In this document: positions 1,900-41,521 of the stretch, one piece after another
Layout of the letters: every line of letters starts with the position of its first letter
How positions within the stretch are numbered: position 1 is the stretch's first letter
Assembly (NCBI GenBank): GCA_944355355.1
Contig: CALVQE010000007.1
Coordinates: 1 to 42,056, forward strand
Direction: 5' to 3'
From: an uncultured Bacilli bacterium
Lineage (GTDB): Bacteria; Bacillota_I; Bacilli_A; RF39; UBA660
DNA: 42,056 nt
Program-made: the position numbers and the translations under genes
The notes under the pieces: generated by a model
What the model saw: only the letters and a program-made list of their open reading frames with translations
Told to the model about the DNA's origin: nothing
Databases searched by the model: none

Positions 1900-3654
1900 T
1901 CAATTCATGCTTCTTTTAAACATTCTTTCTAAATCATAGATACTAAATTTTATAATCGTTGGTCTTCCATGCGGACAATTATAAGGATTATCACAGGCAC
2001 ATAGTTCATTTAGTAGTTCTTCTTGAGCTTCATGGGAAATATGCATGTTTGCTTTAATACTCATTTTACAAGCTAAAGTAATGGCGATCGACTCATTAAA
2101 TTTTACGCGATCAAAGCCATCTAAGCCTCCGATTAAAAGATCGATGATACGCCTAATACTCTCTTCTTCATGTCCTTGTAAAAGCCACGTTGGATGTGAT
2201 TTTACGACAAAGGTATTTAATCCAAATTCCTCAAAGTGAAAACCCATGCTTTCCAGTAAGGGTAATTTTCCTTTAAGTATTAAAAAGTCACTGGAACTTA
2301 GTTCAATCGTAATAGGAAATAAAAGTTCTGTTGTGCTAAGTTCTTTTGATCTCAAAGCCCGCATATTTCGCTCGTAGTTTACTCTTTCTTGAGCAGCATG
2401 TTGATCAATTAAGTAAACACCTTCTTCGTTCTCAGCAATGATATAGGTTCCATGAGCTACACCAACAGGATAAAGCTTTAATCTTTTCATTTCCGGATTT
2501 ACATAAACTTCGGTAGTTGGTTCTTCTTCCTCTGAGGCTTGAAAGTCAAAAGTGGTTTGAACATCTTTCTTATTTTGATAAGGTTCTTCTTGTTCTTTGA
2601 TGATGTTTTCAACAACTTCTGTTTTATATGGATTACTTTCAGGCATCCTTTCTACCGCATCCGGTATTAATAAATTTTTGTATAGGGCGTCTTTTAAAGT
2701 TGTATAAATCAAATCATATAAAATATCCATTTTACCAATTTTTATATCTTGCTTAGTTGGGTGAATATTCACGTCTACTAAGGTAGGATCTGTATAAATA
2801 TTTAAAATGACAATTGGAAATTTAATGTCCGGTTTATAGGTATAATAAGCATCGTTTATGGCTTTGTTAATTTCATAGTTTTTAATGACACGGTCATTTA
2901 CAATGACAATCATGTGGTTGCGGTTACTTTTTAGGATTTCCGGTTTACCAATGTAACCAAATAAATCAAAATCATCATTACTATTTTGCACTTTAATCAT
3001 TTTTGAAGAAACACTTAAGCCATAGATTTCGTGAATCGTTTTTAATAAATCCCCACTGCCACTGGTTCTTACAATATCATGGCCATCATGGTTCAAAGAA
3101 AAGGCTATTTTAGGATGCGATAAAGCTAATCTTTCTAAAAAGGATACACAGCTAGCTAGTTCTGACTGCTCACTTTTCAGGTATTTTAACCGGGCTGGTG
3201 TATTATAAAATAGGTTTGTAATTTTAATTTTGGTTCCCTTTTTTAGAGGTCCTGATTCTTCACATATCAGCCTACCTCCTTCGATGATAATGTGGGTGCC
3301 AACTTCTCCATCACTCGTATTCATTTCGGTCCTTGAAACGCTGGCAATGGAAGGAAGGGCTTCTCCACGAAAGCCTAAAGTATCAATAAAAAATAAGTCA
3401 TCATCTTTATAAATTTTACTGGTAGCATGTCTTTGAAAAGCAAGATGCGCATCTTCTTTATTCATTCCAATGCCATCATCCATTACTTCGATGAGTTTTT
3501 TGCCACCTTCTAAAAGAGTCACATCGATTCTCGTTGCACCCGCATCAATACTGTTTTCACATAGTTCTTTCACTATAGAAGAACATTTTTCAACAACTTC
3601 CCCAGCGGCAATTTTGTTGGCAAGGGTTTCATCCATAACGCGAATTCTATTCAT
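1900..3654 (-). CDS. mutL: DNA mismatch repair protein MutL (endonuclease type)
   Basis: MutL couples mismatch recognition by MutS to strand removal. It has 584 residues. The N-terminal GHKL ATPase is clear: E30 and N34 in KELCENSIDAGA, DDGIGM at 59-64, and GFRGEAL at 94-100. The C-terminal dimerisation domain carries the metal-dependent endonuclease motif DQHA(x2)E(x4)E at 417-428 plus the late CPHGRP motif, so this is the nicking form found in bacteria without MutH. I chose ATG 3654, which follows GGAGG by six bases; an upstream in-frame ATG at 3678 has no such site. The start overlaps the end of yqeH by 8 bp, indicating translational coupling. No mutS is in the window. Confidence 0.97.
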   Translation of the reverse strand: MNRIRVMDETLANKIAAGEVVEKCSSIVKELCENSIDAGATRIDVTLLEGGKKLIEVMDDGIGMNKEDAHLAFQRHATSKIYKDDDLFFIDTLGFRGEALPSIASVSRTEMNTSDGEVGTHIIIEGGRLICEESGPLKKGTKIKITNLFYNTPARLKYLKSEQSELASCVSFLERLALSHPKIAFSLNHDGHDIVRTSGSGDLLKTIHEIYGLSVSSKMIKVQNSNDDFDLFGYIGKPEILKSNRNHMIVIVNDRVIKNYEINKAINDAYYTYKPDIKFPIVILNIYTDPTLVDVNIHPTKQDIKIGKMDILYDLIYTTLKDALYKNLLIPDAVERMPESNPYKTEVVENIIKEQEEPYQNKKDVQTTFDFQASEEEEPTTEVYVNPEMKRLKLYPVGVAHGTYIIAENEEGVYLIDQHAAQERVNYERNMRALRSKELSTTELLFPITIELSSSDFLILKGKLPLLESMGFHFEEFGLNTFVVKSHPTWLLQGHEEESIRRIIDLLIGGLDGFDRVKFNESIAITLACKMSIKANMHISHEAQEELLNELCACDNPYNCPHGRPTIIKFSIYDLERMFKRSMN

Positions 3655-4612
3655 GGTAGCCTCCAAAAAACGACTCACAAATATTAATATATTCTTCTGC
3701 GATATTGTAGAATGTTATTTTACAAGGTGCTTTTATGTAACAAAAACCTAGGCCTTTAAAATAGACATGACTGCGGGCTTTAATATCTTTGGTAAAGCTT
3801 GGTGTATCTAAAAGTGCCGTATTTTTCCCATAGACTTTTTGAACTTTAAGTAAATCACTTTTAAAGAAAGTCACTTGGACTTGGCGATCAAATTGAAGAC
3901 GAATAAAATCTTCTATTAAAAGACTACAAGATTCATTCACAGGAATAATTAAGGGTCTTATTTGCTTTTTTAAAATAGTTTTTTTGATTAAAGCTGGATC
4001 GTCTAGCGTATACATATCAGCAAAGCCAACGGTATCATAGATTTGTTTTTCGAGATAAGGAACTTTAATAAAGTTTAAGGTTGTGTTAGGCATTTCGCTG
4101 ACGGTAATCTCACTTTGGTTAGTTAAAGCTTTTACTAAACTACTTTTACCGGCATTGGTTGGACCGAGAAAGAAGATTTTTTGGTAAGGTAGACGACTCA
4201 ATTTTTCTTTTAATTTATGGACATTTTTAACCGAAATAAAAAGAATTTCTTCGGTAACATGATGGGTCTTTTGAAGCCATTTTCTGATATTTTCATAATA
4301 AATACTTTCCGGTATACTATCACTTTTGGTCACACAGAAAAGTTTGGGAATTTTGATTTGATGATAACACTTTATATTATCTGAATAAAGGTTTAAAAAA
4401 TCACAGAAAAAGAAGGCAAAGCCTTTACTCTTGTTTACTTTTTCAAGCATGCTTCCTTGTTCTTCAGGAATATCTACTTTTTGAAATTCGTGGTAGTTTC
4501 GCATTCGAAAGCAACGACGACAATATTTTTGATCTATGTTTTCAACATAGCCAATTTTAGAAGGATCCTCATTTTGTAAGAGAACTCCGCATCCTTTACA
4601 ACATTTACTCAT
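3647..4612 (-). CDS. yqeH: Circularly permuted ribosome-assembly GTPase YqeH
   Basis: YqeH-family GTPases act in 30S subunit assembly. This 321-residue protein starts with a treble-clef zinc finger (C5-x2-C8 and C31-x2-C34). The G motifs come in permuted order: G4 TKSD (95-98) precedes the P-loop GPTNAGKS (150-157) and G3 DTVG (193-196). The order and the zinc finger together are diagnostic. It is somewhat shorter than Bacillus YqeH (about 366 residues). It overlaps yqeG upstream and mutL downstream by 8 bp each, so the three genes form a tightly coupled operon. Confidence 0.95.
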   Translation of the reverse strand: MSKCCKGCGVLLQNEDPSKIGYVENIDQKYCRRCFRMRNYHEFQKVDIPEEQGSMLEKVNKSKGFAFFFCDFLNLYSDNIKCYHQIKIPKLFCVTKSDSIPESIYYENIRKWLQKTHHVTEEILFISVKNVHKLKEKLSRLPYQKIFFLGPTNAGKSSLVKALTNQSEITVSEMPNTTLNFIKVPYLEKQIYDTVGFADMYTLDDPALIKKTILKKQIRPLIIPVNESCSLLIEDFIRLQFDRQVQVTFFKSDLLKVQKVYGKNTALLDTPSFTKDIKARSHVYFKGLGFCYIKAPCKITFYNIAEEYINICESFFGGYHE

Positions 4613-5126
4613 AATACTCTCCTTTTTTAAATATCCCCTTTTTTTGAAAACTTTTGTAAATTCTTTTTTCGAACCAACGATTTATTTTCGTCGGAAATGC
4701 TTCTTTCGCACTGATAGGGTTTACTAAAATGCTCGTAAATCCCAGACGATTAGCACCTAAAATATCCGTAATGAGTTGATCACCAACACAGGCTACTTCA
4801 GTATCTTTATATGAATATAACTCTAATATTTTCAAATATTTTTTCTTAAATGGCTTGCTGCTGTTACATGAACTATCCACATTGCATCTTTCTTTAAATG
4901 GCGCAACTCTCTTTTTTGAGGCATTGGATAATATAATAGGTTTAAACCCTAAATCCTCTAAATATAAGAAAAATTCTAGAAGTTTTTTGTCGGGAATTTC
5001 TACTTCCATTGGGGCAAGAGTATTATCTAAATCAAACAAAATACACTTAATACCGCGCCTTTTTAAATCCTCATAATTAATATCATAAATACTTCTTTTA
5101 TATATATCTGGTCTAAATATATCCAT
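4605..5126 (-). CDS. yqeG: YqeG-family HAD phosphatase
   Basis: A 173-residue HAD-superfamily hydrolase. Motif I is DLDNTL (near residue 32), motif II the Ser of ILSNAS, motif III a Lys in the KPFKKK stretch, and motif IV GDQLITD. There is no large cap, as in the YqeG (class IIIA) family. Its natural substrate is not settled. Pairing with yqeH is a conserved arrangement in Bacillota and supports a link to ribosome assembly. It is the first gene of the operon running to 1459; the ribosome site is AAGGAAGGTG before ATG 5126. Confidence 0.93.
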   Translation of the reverse strand: MDIFRPDIYKRSIYDINYEDLKRRGIKCILFDLDNTLAPMEVEIPDKKLLEFFLYLEDLGFKPIILSNASKKRVAPFKERCNVDSSCNSSKPFKKKYLKILELYSYKDTEVACVGDQLITDILGANRLGFTSILVNPISAKEAFPTKINRWFEKRIYKSFQKKGIFKKGEYYE

Positions 5127-5231
5127 GACTCACCTTCCTTTTTTAAGTATATCACGTTTCATTCATTTTGGACAGAAGAACAGAAATAAAAATTTATCCT
5201 TTGAATATACTTTAGTATAGGAGTGTTAGAG

Positions 5232-5924
5232 ATGTTTTTACTTTCATTATTAAAATCGATGTTATTTTTTACCGGAAGTTATTCAAACAATGTTTTTCCA
5301 TCACCACTTAGTGAAAAGGAAGAACGCCACTACATTTTAAAAATGATGGCTGGTGATGAAGAGGCTCGCAATAAGCTGATTGAACATAATTTACGGTTAG
5401 TTGCCCATATTGTCAAAAAATTTGAAACCAATAATAAAGATACAGATGATTTAATTGGGATTGGAACGATCGGACTTATTAAGGGCGTAGATTCTTATGA
5501 TTTTGACAAGAATATAAGGCTTACTACGTATGTGGCAAAGTGTATTCAAAATGAAATTTTGATGTATTTTCGAAGTATTAAAGGTAGTCATTTAAAGAAT
5601 ATTAGTTTGAATGATTCGATTGGTTTTGACAAAGATGGGAATGAAATTAGCCTTATTGAAGTGATTAAAGATCAAACGGAAGATTTTGCAAGTGTTTTGC
5701 AGAAGAAAGATAATATATTGCTTGTCAATGAATATCTAAAAGTTTTAAACAGACGAGAACAAGATATTATTGTAAAAAGGTATGGACTCATGAATCGTAA
5801 AGAAATGACTCAAAAAGAAATTGCTAGGGAGATGCATATTTCCAGAAGTTATGTATCACGAATTGAAAAAAGGGCTTTAACAAAGATTTTAAGAGAGTTT
5901 ATCCGCCACAATAAAACTACTTAG
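5232..5924 (+). CDS. sigK: Pro-sigma-K, late mother-cell sporulation sigma factor
   Basis: A sigma-70 family factor of 230 residues that would direct late mother-cell transcription (coat, maturation, lysis). Region 2 (IEHNLRLVAHIVKKFE, DLIGIGTIGLIKG) and region 4 with its helix-turn-helix (EIAREMHISRSYVSRIEKRA) match sigma-K. The hydrophobic N-terminal stretch ending LFFTGSYSNNVFPSPLS is the pro-sequence; by comparison with Bacillus the SpoIVFB cut would fall between S and Y of GSYSNN. ATG 5232 is used because AGGAG is eight bases upstream and overlaps the only earlier alternative (GTG 5223). The gene is intact and not split by a skin-type element. Its processing protease candidate is 9430-10188. 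An AT-rich -10-like GAATATACTT at about 5203-5212 could be a mother-cell promoter, but I could not confirm a -35. Confidence 0.95.
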   Translation: MFLLSLLKSMLFFTGSYSNNVFPSPLSEKEERHYILKMMAGDEEARNKLIEHNLRLVAHIVKKFETNNKDTDDLIGIGTIGLIKGVDSYDFDKNIRLTTYVAKCIQNEILMYFRSIKGSHLKNISLNDSIGFDKDGNEISLIEVIKDQTEDFASVLQKKDNILLVNEYLKVLNRREQDIIVKRYGLMNRKEMTQKEIAREMHISRSYVSRIEKRALTKILREFIRHNKTT

Positions 5925-6831: not shown

Positions 6832-6853
6832 AAAAAAAGTGAGCTAGACTCAC
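6832..6853 (-). terminator. Intrinsic terminator of the phase-variable surface gene
   Basis: The minus strand reads GTGAG-TCTAG-CTCAC followed by seven T. The stem overlaps the TGA stop of the surface gene at 6850-6852. Confidence 0.75.
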
Positions 6854-8133
6854 AGACTTAAAACATATGGATCACTTTCCGAACCTGTTCCACTTGTTAT
6901 TTTAACATTGGAAGATAAATAGACGACTGGAGAAAAGTTATGACCACTGGTATTACCATAAGAGACGTAACAAGTTTGAAAAACATTATCGTATGCTATG
7001 CAAAACACTTCACTGTCTGAACTTGGACTAAATTGATTAATTGACGGAGTAATTGTATACTCAGATAGGCCTTTATGTAGCCAATTATTTTTCAAACAAT
7101 TTCCATCATAGGCAGTATTTAAGGTCATGGTTAAGCAATCAGATCTACTTATAGAGTCTCCGCCTCCAGTTGCAAAGGCAAAATCGCTTGGGTAAAAAAG
7201 CCCGACCTTACCCGTCCATACATTCTCCACCCCTTCAACAATTGTGCTATTTTCCCTTTCGCTTGTATAAAGAGTAGCAGCATTTGCATATTCACTAGCG
7301 CCTAAATTCCATACCGCACTGGCAACCATTTCTTTGGCTTCAGTCGTCAGGCCATTTTCACTAAAATCGCATGTTTTTTCATAAGCACTATAAATACCAT
7401 TACTAACATAATATCCAAAATAACATGCGCTACTTGTTCTGTTCCAATAACCACCATCATTCAATAAAGTCATTAATTCTGCTTGTCCCCAATAGTTATT
7501 GGTCTTGCTCCAAATATAATTATCACTTTGGTAACCATGAATTGCGTTACCGAAACTTTCGTTACGTATAATTTTTAATCTTGCTTCTTTCTTACCTGTT
7601 CCATCATCAATGTTATTCATTACTCCGATAATTCGCCATAACTCATTATTAAACAATACATAATTATTTGGATTTGCTCCAATATATCTTAGGTTATTAT
7701 CTATTGTTCCATCATAAGCTAACTCGTCACTTTCACCTAATGCTAAAATTGTGTCCACAGCAGAAGGTATATATTTAAAATACAAAGTACACTTTGTATG
7801 CGTCGTTGTTAAATTATTTACTTTAATACTCCATGTGTCTTCATTTAACGTTGGTGTTGCCCCATTTGTACAACTAGATTTCTCGGTATCTAATGTGTAT
7901 CCTGATCCTTTTGTTGGCATCGTCTTACTAATCACATCATCGACATAAAAAGCAAAATATAAGTCTCCGGGATCTTCTACTGTTCCATTAATAACATTAA
8001 AGTTTTGATCTTGTTCATAAATAGCAAAACTACTATAAAGATATACCCCTGTAATTAATAGAATACAACATACTGTAAAAATGATAATTCCAATTTTTTT
8101 GTTATCTTTTTGTTTAAACTTTTCTAACTTCAT
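6850..8133 (-). CDS. Membrane-anchored surface protein, exoprotein family member 1
   Basis: A 427-residue protein: about 15 cytoplasmic basic residues, one membrane segment (IGIIIFTVCCILLITGVYLY), then an extracellular part. The first outer domain (to about residue 125) is small and beta-rich with two Cys. The second begins at LALGESDELAYDG and has NELWRIIGVMNN; the end has FSPVVYLSSNVKITSGTGSESDPYVLSL-type sequence. The pairing of an xWRI strand with a [VR]PVxxL...GTGSxxDPY tail is shared with 28282-29871 and 40295-41521, so these are paralogues. Function is unknown; adhesion or host interaction is a guess. Expression should depend on a promoter whose spacer contains a G10 run (8163-8194). 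Ribosome site GGTGA before ATG 8133. Confidence 0.8.
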   Translation of the reverse strand: MKLEKFKQKDNKKIGIIIFTVCCILLITGVYLYSSFAIYEQDQNFNVINGTVEDPGDLYFAFYVDDVISKTMPTKGSGYTLDTEKSSCTNGATPTLNEDTWSIKVNNLTTTHTKCTLYFKYIPSAVDTILALGESDELAYDGTIDNNLRYIGANPNNYVLFNNELWRIIGVMNNIDDGTGKKEARLKIIRNESFGNAIHGYQSDNYIWSKTNNYWGQAELMTLLNDGGYWNRTSSACYFGYYVSNGIYSAYEKTCDFSENGLTTEAKEMVASAVWNLGASEYANAATLYTSERENSTIVEGVENVWTGKVGLFYPSDFAFATGGGDSISRSDCLTMTLNTAYDGNCLKNNWLHKGLSEYTITPSINQFSPSSDSEVFCIAYDNVFQTCYVSYGNTSGHNFSPVVYLSSNVKITSGTGSESDPYVLSL

Positions 8134-22910: not shown

Positions 22911-23768
22911 TTAATTTCCTTTTAACTTACCTATCTCTTCTTCACTTAAATTCGTAAGATTTTTAATTTCTTCTATAGAGTATTTTCCAAGCATTTTCTT
23001 GGCCATGTCTATTTTAGCTTGATACTCACCAAGTTGTTGACCATGTTCTTCGCCTTCTTTACGAGCTAATTTTAACTCTGTATTATGTATCATTTCTTGG
23101 TCTTCTTCTTCAGTCAGAAATAATCGAAAAGCTGGATCATCATTAATCTCATATAAATCTTTCATAAATTTGGTCACCACTTTATCTTTATGTTCTATGC
23201 TCTCTAGTTGCTCTTTATCTAAATCGAGCATAATAAGATACATATATTCTTTAATTTTCTCTTCGTCTTTATGATACCAGTATTCCATTAATTTGTCCAT
23301 ATCCCATTCCACAATTTTAAAATTGTTGACGTACTTCTTTAACTTATCATTTTGAACTGTATAAACGGAATATAATTCTCTATTTTCATCTGGTTTCATG
23401 CCATAAGTCAAGTTTAATTGAAGGATATCTATATCATCAGTATACTCTTTTCCTTTCTTGACATAATGTAAGTAAGCATCACATTGGTATGCTAAATTTC
23501 GGACATGTAAATAAGGGGTTTCTCTGGCATTCATTTCAATACCAATTTTACCTTTATCTGTTTCTAGTAACACATCAAAATATTTTCTTTTTAAGTTTAA
23601 GTTTCCAGTATTTCGTTCAACATTTTCATATTTAATTTTATAAATCTTGGTCTTTAAAGAAACTTCTAATAACTTTATTAATAACTCTTTATTTTCTTCT
23701 TTTAAAAAGATTTCTTTAAAAGCACGATCATTTTTACAAGTATAAAATTTTTCTTTTGTTGCAATCAT
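22911..23768 (-). CDS. Rpn-family PD-(D/E)XK nuclease/transposase-like protein, copy A
   Basis: 285 residues of the Rpn/PDDEXK_2 family (recombination-promoting nuclease, often annotated as a putative transposase). The N-terminal NDRAFKEIFL is the family opening. The nuclease core reads KYFDVLLETDKGKIGIEMNA, where D and E are probable metal ligands and the usual Lys is replaced by Asn. A Gln/Glu-rich helix and a C-terminal KKMLGKYSIEEIKNLTNLSEEEI follow. It is related to 32999-33865. The ribosome site lies in the loop of a 6-bp hairpin (23770-23775/23786-23791). Upstream are two perfect Spo0A boxes. Confidence 0.82.
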   Translation of the reverse strand: MIATKEKFYTCKNDRAFKEIFLKEENKELLIKLLEVSLKTKIYKIKYENVERNTGNLNLKRKYFDVLLETDKGKIGIEMNARETPYLHVRNLAYQCDAYLHYVKKGKEYTDDIDILQLNLTYGMKPDENRELYSVYTVQNDKLKKYVNNFKIVEWDMDKLMEYWYHKDEEKIKEYMYLIMLDLDKEQLESIEHKDKVVTKFMKDLYEINDDPAFRLFLTEEEDQEMIHNTELKLARKEGEEHGQQLGEYQAKIDMAKKMLGKYSIEEIKNLTNLSEEEIGKLKGN

Positions 23769-28220: not shown

Positions 28221-28248
28221 TTCCCAAAATGATGAGTCATTTTGGGAA
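28221..28248. repeat. Perfect 12-bp hairpin with 4-nt loop just after the variable-end surface gene
   Basis: TTCCCAAAATGA (28221-28232), loop TGAG, perfect complement 28237-28248. No T tract follows on either strand, so it is unlikely to be a terminator. It lies 34 bp past the stop of 28282-29871. Diversity-generating retroelements such as that of Bordetella phage BPP-1 need a hairpin with a 4-base loop downstream of the variable region. Confidence 0.8.
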
Positions 28249-28281: not shown

Positions 28282-29871
28282 CTAATCGGCGATTCTCCAT
28301 GGGTCATCAGCCGTTCCTGAGCCTACTTTCAGGCTATCAGGTATCAGATTGAGAATGGGACGCACACCGTTCAAGAAATACGCGAGGTTGTTGAGGGCAG
28401 TACCACTCGAATCGACGCGACGAACAGACGCATCGGCGCCATTGAAGCCGTAAGGCGACATGGTCCAGTAAGTGTTGCCTGTATATAAATAATACCCTGA
28501 ATTAGAAGTGCTATAGCCTCCGGCTAAAACAACTTCATCCGTTGTAACAAGTCCGATTGGATAACTTAAATCTCCATTCCCTGTAATTTCATCATCTACT
28601 GTAAATCGATCATTTTGATTTGGACATGTAAGTCTTGGATATTGCGTTTCTGTACTATCCCATGGACCGTCAGACCAGCGATAACGTGTATAACTTGTTC
28701 CTGTACCTGTACCTGTATTAGTTTCATTAAACGAACGATCGTTGCAGAATAAGGTATCGCTGACATAACTAGATAAACCTTTATCTTCAATATTTGTCTT
28801 ATACCAATTATCTAAATAGGATTTAATCGTACTATCATTCGTGTTGGCATGGGTATCTTCATAGGTACTCGAACCTGTTGTGCCATACATATAGCCGACA
28901 TACGCATTATCATTATAAGATGAATTGTAGGCACTGGTTCCTATTTGAGTATAATCTGTATTTGAATCATTATATCCATTTTTTAAAACATCACTTTTAT
29001 TTGGTAAAGCATCAATGACACTGGCATCTCCAGCATAAATCATTCTTATACTTCCATCTCCATTGATTCTTAGTATTCGCCAATAAAAGCCTGCAAACTT
29101 TACCCAGTTATTTTCAACGTTACCACGATAGTAATAGCTTGTTCCATAGTCATCTGAGGCACTACAAAGATAACCATTGTTTTCTTCTTCACCTGTTACT
29201 TGGACAGTTCCGTCGTCATTTACGGTTGGACAAGCACCTGTCGTATCTAATTGTTCAATAATCTTGTCGGCTACTGTTGGTTCTAGTGTGACTGCACTAC
29301 TAACGACGTTGATACTTGCTTCAAACTTTTGTCCTTGTACTTCATTGCCGGCTGACTCATCTATCCATAGATAAATATTATACGTCACACTTGCACCTTG
29401 TTTTAAGGTTCCAGTTTGAATGATTATTGACTGATCTAGATTTTCAACAGGTAGATTGCCTGTTTCTACATTTATATTGGATGAGACTTTGGCATAGTCT
29501 CCTAAGTTTGTGCCATTTGTAGGTGTTCCAGTACTAATGGCAAATTTGATTTTAGAGTTATCCATTGTATTGGTTGTTAAGGTATTTAAGGTGATTACAT
29601 ATTTGGCATCGGTTGTACATTTTGTATTGGATAGTTTTATGGTATATGGTGTTTGGGTTAGGCCTTTACTATCACTGACAGGATAGGTGTTTTTTAGAGA
29701 AATGGGTTTATTTACTTCTTCCATTTCGACATCAAAACACCCTACACTGACAAGGTTTTCTCCTTCTTGGGCAAAGTCTGCTATCCATAAAGCATAACTT
29801 TGCATTGCCATTAGGCATATGGCTATAGCAACTGCTACAATTGCTAGTCCTAATTTGTATTTTAAGCGCAT
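28282..29871 (-). CDS. Surface protein with a probable hypervariable C-terminus, exoprotein family member 2
   Basis: 529 residues. An N-terminal signal/anchor (LGLAIVAVAIAICLMAM) is followed by a TasA/camelysin-like beta domain (ALWIADFAQEGENLVSVGCF, to about 190), then a module with KFAGFYWRILRINGDG and the C-terminal end TTDEVVLAGGYSTSNSGYYLY, YWTMSPYGFNGADAS and NGVRPILNL, closing GSGTADDPWRI. The last part has the shape of C-type-lectin-fold targets of diversity-generating retroelements (xYWTxSP...GVRPxxxL). Its DNA (28282-28480) is strikingly G+C-rich and full of NNC/NNT codons unlike the rest of the gene. Paralogues: 6850-8133 and 40295-41521. ATG 29871 has GAGGG upstream. Confidence 0.8.
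   Translation of the reverse strand: MRLKYKLGLAIVAVAIAICLMAMQSYALWIADFAQEGENLVSVGCFDVEMEEVNKPISLKNTYPVSDSKGLTQTPYTIKLSNTKCTTDAKYVITLNTLTTNTMDNSKIKFAISTGTPTNGTNLGDYAKVSSNINVETGNLPVENLDQSIIIQTGTLKQGASVTYNIYLWIDESAGNEVQGQKFEASINVVSSAVTLEPTVADKIIEQLDTTGACPTVNDDGTVQVTGEEENNGYLCSASDDYGTSYYYRGNVENNWVKFAGFYWRILRINGDGSIRMIYAGDASVIDALPNKSDVLKNGYNDSNTDYTQIGTSAYNSSYNDNAYVGYMYGTTGSSTYEDTHANTNDSTIKSYLDNWYKTNIEDKGLSSYVSDTLFCNDRSFNETNTGTGTGTSYTRYRWSDGPWDSTETQYPRLTCPNQNDRFTVDDEITGNGDLSYPIGLVTTDEVVLAGGYSTSNSGYYLYTGNTYWTMSPYGFNGADASVRRVDSSGTALNNLAYFLNGVRPILNLIPDSLKVGSGTADDPWRIAD
28345..28480 (-). other. Candidate DGR variable region (VR)
   Basis: Bases 28381-28440 contain 38 G or C of 60 and 28361-28480 about 67 of 120, against roughly one third in the surroundings. 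The coding strand carries runs of NNY codons (TTC, GCC, TCT, CGT, CGC, GTC, CTC, AAC) between invariant-looking YWTMSP and GVRPILNL. That is the trace expected when AAC/AAT codons of a template repeat are mutated at A. No template repeat or reverse transcriptase is visible in the window. Confidence 0.55.
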
Positions 29872-32007: not shown

Positions 32008-32036
32008 CCAGTCTCATATGGGACTGGGTCTTTTTT
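32008..32036 (+). terminator. Intrinsic terminator of the 670-aa gene
   Basis: CCAGTCTC (32008-32015) pairs with GGGACTGG (32020-32027), one G-T pair, loop ATAT, then GTC and six T. Confidence 0.85.
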
Positions 32037-32911
32037 ATACTACGGATTTTTCCAAAGAATGTTTACTTAACATAAGAATTTCTTTTTCATTTAATCCCGT
32101 AAGAACTTTGATTTCTTCTACGGAATATTTTTCAAGCATTTTCTTTGCAATTTCAATTGCTTTTTGTTTTTCTCCAAGTTGCTGGCCACGTTCTTCGCCT
32201 TCAGCTTTTGCTTCCATAATTAAGGTATTGCGAATCTTTTCTTCATCTTGTTCTTTTGTTAAATACTCTCGAAATCTTGGATCTTCATTGACTCTCTCTA
32301 ATTCTTCCATATATTTTTTCACCAACCTATCTTTTGTTTTGGAATACAACTTTTCCAATTCTTCTAATGGTAATCCAAGCATGATAATATACTTGTACTC
32401 TTGTATTTTCTCTTCGTTTTCATCATACCAAAATCTGACTATCCTGTCTATATTTACCTCATAAATAAAGGCATTTTGGACAAATAGAAGTTGATCGTCG
32501 TCCTGAATTTTGTAAACTCGACATTCTTTTGGATCTTTATGAATGCCACTTGTAAAGTTTAACTGTAGAAACTGGGTTACTTCATCATAGACTTGACCTG
32601 TGCCAACATAATGAGATACCATATCACTAAAAAAAGCAAAGTTTCGCGCTCGGATATACTTTTGATTCGATGCATTCACTTCAATTCCTATGAGTCCTGA
32701 ATCCGTTTCCAATAAGACGTCTAGTGCTTTTCTTCTAACTGAAACATTTCCTTCGATTCTTTCTGCATTCAAAAGCATTATCTTACTAAAATTCATTTTT
32801 AAAGAAGTATACAGTAAAATAGATAATAAATCTTTATTTTCTTCTTTTAAAAACGCGATCATTCATGCCCAAATAAAATGTCTTTTCTTCATTAAGCATG
32901 GAAACTTTCAT
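32035..32911 (-). pseudogene. Rpn-family nuclease copy B, frameshifted by a 14-bp deletion
   Basis: Nearly identical to copy C downstream of codon 22. The true start ATG 32911 with AGGAGGTG is present and gives MKVSMLNEEKTFYLGMNDRVF, but 14 bp are missing relative to copy C. The lost unit (TTTTTAAAGAAATC in C) begins with TTTTTAA, which also starts the sequence after it, so slippage between 7-bp repeats explains the loss. The main frame can only be read from an internal ATG at 32862 (MIAFLKEENK), which lacks a ribosome site and removes the conserved family N-terminus. A truncated product from coupled re-initiation at ATGAATGATC is possible. Confidence 0.85.
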
Positions 32912-32998: not shown

Positions 32999-33865
32999 TT
33001 ATGCCACAAATTTTTTATTTAACATGCGAATTTCTTTTTCATTTAATCCCGTAAGAACTTTGATTTCTTCTACGGAATATTTTTCAAGCATTTTCTTTGC
33101 TATTTCTATTTTGGTTTGTTTTTCTCCAAGTTCTTCGCCTTCAGCTTTTGCTTCCATAATTAAGGTATTGCGAATCTTTTCTTCATCTTGTTCTTTCGTT
33201 AAATACTCCCGAAATCTTGGATCTTCATTGACACCCTCTAATTCTTTCATATATTTTTTCACCAACCTATCTTTTGTTTTAGAATATAATTTTTCTAATT
33301 CTTCTAATGGTAATCCAAGCATGATAATATACTTGTACTCTTGTATTTTCTCTTCGTTTTCATCATACCAAAATTTAACTATCCTGTCTATATTCACTTC
33401 ATAAATAAAGGCGTTTCGTATAAAAAGAAGTTGATCATCATCTTGCATTTTATAAATTCGACATTCTTTTGGATCTTTATGGATCCCACTTGTGAAGTTT
33501 AACTGCAGAAACTGGGTTACTTCATCATAGACTTGACCTGTGCCAACATGATGAGATACCATATCACTAAAAAAAGCAAAGTTTCGCGCTCGGATATACT
33601 TTTGATTCGATGAATTTACTTCTATTCCAATAAGTCCTGAATCCGTTTCCAATAGAACATCGAGTGTTTTTCTTCTAACTGAAACATTTCCTTCGATTCT
33701 TTCTGCATTCAAAAGCGTTATCTTACTAAAACTCATTTTTAAAGAAGTATACAGTAAAATAGACAATAAATCTTTATTTTCTTCTCTTAAAAAGATTTCT
33801 TTAAAAACCCGATCATTCATTCCTAAATAAAATGTGTTTTCTTCATTAAACATAGAAACTTTCAT
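32999..33865 (-). CDS. Rpn-family PD-(D/E)XK nuclease/transposase-like protein, copy C
   Basis: 288 residues, intact. It opens with LGMNDRVFKEIFLREENKDL; the nuclease core is KTLDVLLETDSGLIGIEVNS, with candidate ligands D and E and Asn in place of the usual Lys, as in copy A. A charged helical region and a small C-terminal domain (EIAKKMLEKYSVEEIKVLTG) follow. ATG 33865 has AAGGAGGTG seven bases upstream; GTG 33874 lies inside that site. It is a tandem duplicate of copy B with a period of about 954 bp including the promoter. Family members cut DNA and promote recombination in E. coli; the role here is unknown. Confidence 0.85.
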   Translation of the reverse strand: MKVSMFNEENTFYLGMNDRVFKEIFLREENKDLLSILLYTSLKMSFSKITLLNAERIEGNVSVRRKTLDVLLETDSGLIGIEVNSSNQKYIRARNFAFFSDMVSHHVGTGQVYDEVTQFLQLNFTSGIHKDPKECRIYKMQDDDQLLFIRNAFIYEVNIDRIVKFWYDENEEKIQEYKYIIMLGLPLEELEKLYSKTKDRLVKKYMKELEGVNEDPRFREYLTKEQDEEKIRNTLIMEAKAEGEELGEKQTKIEIAKKMLEKYSVEEIKVLTGLNEKEIRMLNKKFVA

Positions 33866-33888
33866 GTTTGTCACCTCCTTGGCTCTTT

Positions 33889-40294: not shown

Positions 40295-41521
40295 TTACGT
40301 TCCATATGTTAAGGTATAAGGTTCTTCTATAGTTCCTGTCCCTTCAACTGAAGCTCTACGAATAATTGTAATGACTGGTCTTACAAATAAATTCGATGTT
40401 TCTACTACATCTTTTCCTAAAGAGCCATTGGTATTGACAACAATATAGGAAACCGTGTTATTTTCTTTTTTATGAGGAGTCATCGTCCAGTACGCTCCTT
40501 GCATGCCATCTAAGTATAAATAGTAACCGGTATTTTCATTTAGGTTACCTCCAGCATACATAACTTCATCGGCTGTTAAAATAGCAATTTTTTTAGGCAC
40601 GCTTGTTCCATTACAAACATTGGTAGGATTTTGTTCTGTAAAGATACGGATATTCGAAAGATATTCAATACGATTATTTTCATCGGTCATTACAGAGTCA
40701 TCAAAGCAGTATCTAGTGCTTGAGATCAAATCATCGTAATCCATTAGATTTTGACTGTACCAATTTTCTAATTGTTGATTGACATTAGTTTCTGTAAAGT
40801 TTGTATTACCAACATTCTCAGTCGTATTCATTGGTATCATTTGTTCAGTTACCCCATTTAAAACAAGCTTAACTGTGCCATCTTCATTTATTTTAACAAT
40901 ACGCCATGTTTGACCAGCAAAGGAAACATAATTATTGGTTACATTACCTTTAAAGTAGTATACATCACCATCTTGTTCAGCTTTACGAATTAGTCCATCT
41001 GTAGCATCAGCATTTTCTAAGATGGTATTGTTTGCTAAAACTGTACTAGCAAAACTGTTATCGACTTGTTCAATATCTGTTTCAATTTCAAAGGTTATCG
41101 TTCTTTTATGAGGATTTTGAATAGTAAGTAAGAAACGTAGTGTTTCACCAGGTTCTATTTTGATGCGACTTCCTAATATTGTTTGAGAAAAGTTAGCCGT
41201 CACGGCTTCAAAGGTTTCTATATTTGAAGTGATTTCATAACTTAAATCTTCGGTGTTTCCTTCGATATTTAATAGTCTGATATAAAAATATTTCGTTTCT
41301 GTAGAATGATTTGTTACCGAAAAGTTTATTTCTTCGGTTTCTTCTTCGAGTTTAATCTTATTGCCATTTAAATAATTAATAGATAGTTCTTCTGTAACCA
41401 TAGTAATGGCCTCGCCGTAGCTTTGATCTTCTAAATAGGCACGATATTGGAATAAAATACTTATACAAAGTAAGATAGCACAAAAAATAAGCGCTAAAGC
41501 AATGGTATATCTTTTCCTCAT
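40295..41521 (-). CDS. Membrane-anchored surface protein, exoprotein family member 3
   Basis: 408 residues: membrane anchor (IALALIFCAILLCISILF), an outer beta domain with immunoglobulin-like strands (INFSVTNHSTETKYFYIRLL, to about 160), then the family module: YYFKGNVTNNYVSFAGQTWR, TADEVMYAGGNLNENTGYYL, GAYWTMTPHK, FVRPVITI and GTGTIEEPYTL. It matches member 2 closely in order and spacing of these motifs, but its YWTMTP-to-VRPV segment has ordinary AT-rich codons, so it is not visibly a diversified target. Ribosome site GAAGGTGA before ATG 41521. Confidence 0.8.
   Translation of the reverse strand: MRKRYTIALALIFCAILLCISILFQYRAYLEDQSYGEAITMVTEELSINYLNGNKIKLEEETEEINFSVTNHSTETKYFYIRLLNIEGNTEDLSYEITSNIETFEAVTANFSQTILGSRIKIEPGETLRFLLTIQNPHKRTITFEIETDIEQVDNSFASTVLANNTILENADATDGLIRKAEQDGDVYYFKGNVTNNYVSFAGQTWRIVKINEDGTVKLVLNGVTEQMIPMNTTENVGNTNFTETNVNQQLENWYSQNLMDYDDLISSTRYCFDDSVMTDENNRIEYLSNIRIFTEQNPTNVCNGTSVPKKIAILTADEVMYAGGNLNENTGYYLYLDGMQGAYWTMTPHKKENNTVSYIVVNTNGSLGKDVVETSNLFVRPVITIIRRASVEGTGTIEEPYTLTYGT

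Follow-up and report, generated by a model that had tools for sequence, protein, structure and literature searches.

What gives the 3′ end of one surface gene in an uncultured Bacilli bacterium a composition unlike its surroundings? The gene lies on the minus strand of a 42,056-nt stretch of DNA (contig CALVQE010000007.1 of assembly GCA_944355355.1), referred to here as the window. In a first-pass annotation, the end of this gene was proposed to be the variable region (VR) of a diversity-generating retroelement (DGR), because 28381-28440 has a G+C content of 63% and because successive codons between YWTMSP and GVRPILNL are of the NNC/NNT type. Both observations were borne out. The G+C content computes to 63.3%, a value equalled by no other 60-bp stretch in the window, and 30 of the 38 codons of the segment 28357-28470 end in C or T and 17 in C, compared with 56% and 18%, respectively, in the remaining gene. 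The segment as a whole has 57% G+C, as against 36.5% in the remainder of the gene and 31% across the window. It encodes the C-terminus YWTMSP...GVRPILNL and contains a hypervariable core at about 28366-28461; its 3′ boundary is 75 nt from the end of the ORF, and 28282-28356 is ordinary gene sequence. It had also been stated that the window lacks a reverse transcriptase (RT), and indeed none was found among its ORFs; one was found on another contig of the genome, C20.

The segment is very probably the VR of a remote DGR target, overwritten from an RNA composed of a template repeat (TR) and an Sp element by means of Avd and RT. According to this mechanism, a small RNA consisting of the TR and a structured 3′ Sp would be bound by Avd and the DGR RT, the RT would copy the TR and place random bases opposite template adenines, and the resulting cDNA would take the place of the VR, which lies at the 3′ end of a gene for a membrane-anchored surface protein. 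The cDNA step and the use of templates in trans are inferred, and the system may be active at present. The features concerned are collected in Table 1.

Table 1. Features of the window and of the machinery locus on contig C20
Feature	Coordinates	Strand	Remarks
Target gene, 529 aa (window)	28282..29871	-	ORF; predicted N-terminal hydrophobic anchor, C-terminal DUF6273-like domain with VR
Class A VR including conserved flanks TACTGGACC...GGTGTGCGTCCC (window)	28357..28470	-	Aligned with 13 paralogous VRs; G016 class A template locus
VR 3′ end GGTGTGCGTCCC, candidate start of cDNA integration, putatively IMH-like (window)	28357..28368	-	G016 class A TR/VR identity stops at GGTGTGCGGCCC
Inverted repeat TTCCCAAAATGA-CTCA-TCATTTTGGGAA, possible DGR-type hairpin/cruciform (window)	28221..28248	-	33 nt after stop codon
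Target gene; one-base insertion in VR shifts frame (C20, L014)	VR region 2130-2264		
Six tandem template repeats T1-T6 (C20, L014)	2588-4236		
Avd-like ORF, 115 aa (C20, L014)	4420-4767		
Reverse transcriptase (C20, L014)	4757-5887		RVT_1 1.6e-17

The window protein shows a weak match to DUF6273 (E 0.0098-0.017, residues 464-509), and the resemblance recurs in 14 of 21 paralogs, the best with 2.5e-6. In phage DGR targets, DUF6273 has been modelled as a C-type lectin fold (PMC10743442, PMC11792537). The fold predicted for the C-terminal domain from three window sequences reached a pLDDT of 33 and was discarded, and a profile of the target gave no match among PDB sequences. A hydrophobic segment at the N-terminus suggests a membrane anchor and display at the surface. 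Viral contigs contained neither a relative of the target protein nor the class A pattern described below, and hence a phage origin is unsupported. Two other genes of the window, 40295-41521 (-) and 6850-8133 (-), are related to the C-terminal domain of the target and are without the G+C-rich tip; the first ends in YWTMTP...FVRPVITI. The window also holds three related ORFs, 22911-23768, 32035-32862 and 32999-33874 (-), two of them near-identical and in tandem, which by eye resemble Rpn/PDDEXK-type transposase-family proteins.

On searching the segment against its own genome, a MAG of 1.37 Mb in 80 contigs that is 93% complete, 18 matches were obtained, the window itself included, which in frame are the C-termini of related genes, YWTMSP...GVRP(V/T/I)(I/L)NL. 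Fourteen copies belong to what is here called class A (two each on C14, C5, C45 and C8, and one each on C4, C15, C37, C57, C76 and the window); C73 and C24 carry doubtful relatives and C31 a different VR type. The paralogs align across the entire C-terminal domain and the family is partly mosaic. In a gapless block of 63 nt from 12 class A copies, the first and second positions of AAC/AAT-type codons show up to four bases and the third is nearly fixed; in the 57 nt directly upstream of the block in the same genes, third positions vary like those of ordinary coding DNA. When a template was reconstructed from the remaining copies, mismatches to the window VR fell on 11 of its 19 A positions and on 2 of its 44 non-A positions (Fisher p = 7e-6, an approximate value, the A columns having been derived from the family itself). 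The class A copies are not visibly decayed, since their frames are open and their third positions nearly invariant. Altogether, the genome holds about 20 DGR targets.

The inverted repeat downstream of the window gene has a 12-bp stem and a 4-nt loop and lies approximately 108 nt from the end of the VR. Five copies of its core are present in the genome, all of them following a VR gene (C7, C11, C14, C20 and C31), and a control pattern gave zero occurrences; most VR genes of the genome are without it. It is also present in G016, a genome of the same genus, and in G030, and in C14, C20, C31, G016 and G030 the outer stems differ and yet pair around a CTCN loop. In phage DGRs, the hairpins are found 4-34 bp from the VR and combine a GRNA loop with a GC-rich stem (PMC3240598), whereas the repeat in the window has a CTCN loop, an AT-rich stem and a much greater distance; owing to these differences, it is alike in kind to the phage hairpins, not the same. 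A terminator or another 3′-end signal unrelated to DGR homing is a serious candidate for its role, to which we give somewhat less than even weight: stop codons are often followed by inverted repeats, and the departures from the phage elements (PMC3240598) and the scarcity of the repeat among VR genes agree with such a role, but no T-run follows the repeat, all five genomic copies flank VR genes, and the outer stems show matched changes around a conserved core and 4-nt loop.

The machinery on C20, comprising a target gene, six TRs, avd and RT, is the one assembled locus of its kind in the genome and fits the class B targets. The best PDB sequence match of the RT is 8ub7 (7.5e-30), titled only 'Reverse transcriptase', which we take to be the BPP-1 DGR complex; group II intron RTs follow twenty orders of magnitude behind. 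The RT contains the motif IGNMTSQ, which fits the DGR-type (I/V/L)GxxxSQ, and the SQ motif is a feature of DGR RTs (PMC3521204). The Avd-like ORF matches bAvd with 6.7e-10 (39.9 bits, curated cut-off 40) and DivGenRetAVD with 1.1e-9 (38.5 against 80 bits), both under the curated cut-offs; its position and length are those expected for Avd. RT fragments on C39 (L013, G000:C39, 2047-2681) look like a group II intron RT and were discounted as a DGR RT.

Five class B VRs match the C20 templates, one each on C20, C4 and C11 and two on C30. In the best case, the C20 VR differs from T3 at 19 of 30 A and at none of 81 non-A positions; for the C4b VR and T3 the differences are 12/30 and 1/81, and for the C30a VR and T4 12/30 and 1/78. 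The C4b and C30b VRs were better fitted as two-part mosaics, and the C11 VR retains four non-A differences. When the mutable base was set to C, G or T in the two-part fits, 10-19 differences per VR were left unexplained, compared with 0-4 for A. The frameshift in the VR of the C20 target could be overwritten by later homing, or it may be an assembly error. With a DGR-type RT, an Avd-like gene and A-rich templates in the same genome, and with paralog differences falling on the inferred template A, the reading of the segment as a DGR variable region was upheld, and the remote template that had been offered as one alternative was judged to be right. With an RT beside a series of distinct RNA templates in the genome, many surface proteins appear to be rewritten by a single mutation machine.

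Four of the six C20 templates (T1, T3, T4 and T6) are followed by a conserved element of about 138 nt, T2 and T5 being without one of their own, and the same element follows TRs in G016, G014, G008, G012, G015, G030 and G035. It was named Sp by analogy, because it is placed where BPP-1 has its Sp RNA, which recruits bRT-Avd and primes cDNA synthesis (PMC12875486); by the same analogy, its role may be as in BPP-1. The fold obtained with RNAalifold is branched, with 12 pairs backed by two-sided changes; 98% of the cells pair, compared with 26-47% when the partners were slid, and the covariation score was not reached by any shuffle. Sp elements of class A and class B fit one covariance model, and no Rfam family matches the element. 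The sequence GGG(A/G)TAAT(C/T), or a one-letter variant of it, lies 20-35 nt upstream of most TRs compared, and three terminator-like hairpins lie between the C20 units, with 1.3 expected in the region; the units may be transcribed independently. It was also considered whether templates overwrite each other by A-specific homing. Differences among the TRs within arrays (L014 2588-4236 and L091 7289-9155) show only a mild excess at A, some of the TRs being VR-like, and the idea was kept as a lead. In G016:C15 (L091, minus strand, ~9389 to 9230), the 3′ end of a target gene runs from the VR into Sp-like sequence and its normal end is gone, as if a VR and a TR had recombined.

Template units also occur away from any RT gene. 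The genome G014, of another species, has eight of them, four on its contig C65 before avd-RT, two on C14 and one each on C40 and C39, while its RT match is found on C65 only; the two on C14 lie in the middle of a 20.7-kb contig, between unrelated genes. In the G014 VRs on C15 and C2, the 3′ part fits the C14a unit and the 5′ part a C65 unit, and the C14a-fitting part contains an ATTTAT block that is absent from all other templates; in the C27 VR, the 3′ part fits C14b. On allowing remote units, the unexplained differences of the G014 VRs dropped from 7 to 3, from 10 to 7 and from 7 to 4. These fits are suggestive and not proof, because a free breakpoint and eight templates were used, and contigs of a MAG can be misbinned. 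They suggest that templates have been supplied by remote units and that later homing can leave the 5′ end of a VR in place. A broader proposal, to which we give an even chance, is that the DGR templates of this genus make up a family of independent small-RNA genes, whose units (GGGATAATC promoter-like motif, TR, Sp and often a terminator) would act in trans with one RT and Avd, in arrays and alone, and that mosaic VRs arise by successive homing from different templates, with the latest event at the 3′ end and earlier ones at the 5′ end; a few templates and about 20 targets could thus combine.

Which template wrote the window VR? Neither a class A TR, nor another strong Sp copy, nor a second DGR RT was found in the window's assembly. 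Among the templates at hand, the best leaves 16 non-A differences to the window VR and none is its direct template. The first-pass annotation had proposed a search for a repeat differing at template A positions beside an RT and an Avd-like gene; this was found in the C20 templates as far as class B is concerned, but no exact template for the window VR is present in the assembly, and the comparison for this VR therefore rests on paralogs and on templates of sister genomes. G016 carries on its contig C36, in a row, a class A VR, the inverted repeat, a TR (~584-690), an Avd-like gene and an RT. This TR differs from the G016 VRs on C36, C46 and C33 at 20, 15 and 20 of 30 A positions and at 1, 1 and 4 non-A positions; against two class A VRs from the genome of the window, 14-15 A and 4-5 non-A positions differ. 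A second system in G016 closely resembles that of C20, with an RT 97% identical and six complete template units. The class A machinery is probably present in the strain of the window, its template or templates lying either in an unassembled second cassette as in G016 or in stand-alone units as in G014. A synteny comparison for the missing cassette yielded nothing and, having no positive control, was given no weight. A scan of genome contigs for the class A pattern gave one match in a Patescibacteria MAG and an orphan template in G022. The latter is an A-rich, class A-type template-like repeat in non-coding DNA of an uncultured Bacilli bacterium (G022:C29, L094/L106, CALVWG010000029.1, ~672-775); no RT was found in that genome and the repeat gave no match to the Sp model; it is either an orphan or a different type of template.

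The C20 RT and Avd might also serve class A, through class A units that lie unassembled elsewhere and stand alone as in G014. That some template units of G014 lie far from its sole RT match, and that a single covariance model accommodates the Sp of both classes, speaks for such sharing, but in G016 class A has a separate RT, about 49% identical to that of class B, so each class may depend on an enzyme of its own; sharing is possible, though we lean against it. We consider it unlikely that the window VR is a fossil of a class A DGR since lost from the lineage, with only the class B DGR keeping its parts. A 93%-complete assembly without class A template or second DGR RT would agree with a loss, as would the broken RT genes of some relatives and the Treponema denticola strains known to have targets without TR or RT (PMC4891356); however, in the class A copies the frames remain open and the third positions nearly invariant, and the genome is in 80 contigs, assemblies being prone to break at repeats of this kind. 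RT matches with internal stop codons were seen in three genomes of the same genus (G012:C35, G001:C4 and G004:C46), where the RT seems to decay repeatedly. An ordinary gene family shaped by paralog recombination and diversifying selection, with no retroelement acting at the window gene, would account for many, partly mosaic paralogs, but it is very improbable, as selection explains neither fixed third and free first and second positions at AAC/AAT-type codons nor differences to non-coding templates at A only.

The segment in the window is very probably a genuine DGR variable region, and remote targets and more than one TR are already known. The BPP-1 DGR (mtd, avd, TR, brt) shares with the present system A-specific transfer from TR to VR at the 3′ end of a target, Avd, an RT with the SQ motif and a structured RNA directly 3′ of the TR (PMC12875486, PMC3521204); it differs in having one TR between avd and brt, whereas here six TRs with Sp stand in a row before avd and the targets are scattered, and its downstream inverted repeat differs in loop, stem and distance from that of the window's genome. 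The TvpA DGR of T. denticola is likewise chromosomal and has remote surface targets with C-terminal VRs, with one TR and 2-7 targets per strain (PMC4891356), compared with about 20 targets, several templates per genome and two template classes here. Many targets written in trans are reported for Trichodesmium (18 TR/VR-related loci; PMC8867640) and Thiohalocapsa (15 targets at nine loci; PMC10907252), where, in the parts of these reports consulted, neither template arrays with repeated Sp nor RT-free template units are described, unlike here. DGRs with several TRs were listed by MetaCSST, e.g., two TRs and six VRs in Stenotrophomonas sp. SKA14 (PMC6642488); the portions seen of that source describe no repeated Sp/terminator units or stand-alone template loci such as those found here. 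DUF6273 targets of gut phage DGRs (tentaclins, Faecalibacterium prophages) also have the VR in the C-terminal part of a DUF6273-type domain (PMC10743442, PMC11792537), while the genes of the window's genome are chromosomal, probably membrane-anchored and without relatives on viral contigs. A limited search of the open-access literature gave no account of arrays in which templates and Sp are repeated, of template loci lacking an RT, or of a multi-template, multi-target DGR system of the present kind. RT-centred surveys of short contigs miss remote targets (PMC8144416).

If this reading holds, a small uncultured bacterium would place a considerable share of its surface repertoire under targeted hypermutation, and DGR templates would be exchangeable RNA modules instead of being tied to one cassette. 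The system would then offer a natural model of multi-template mutagenesis, and the Sp RNA model a means to find orphan templates.
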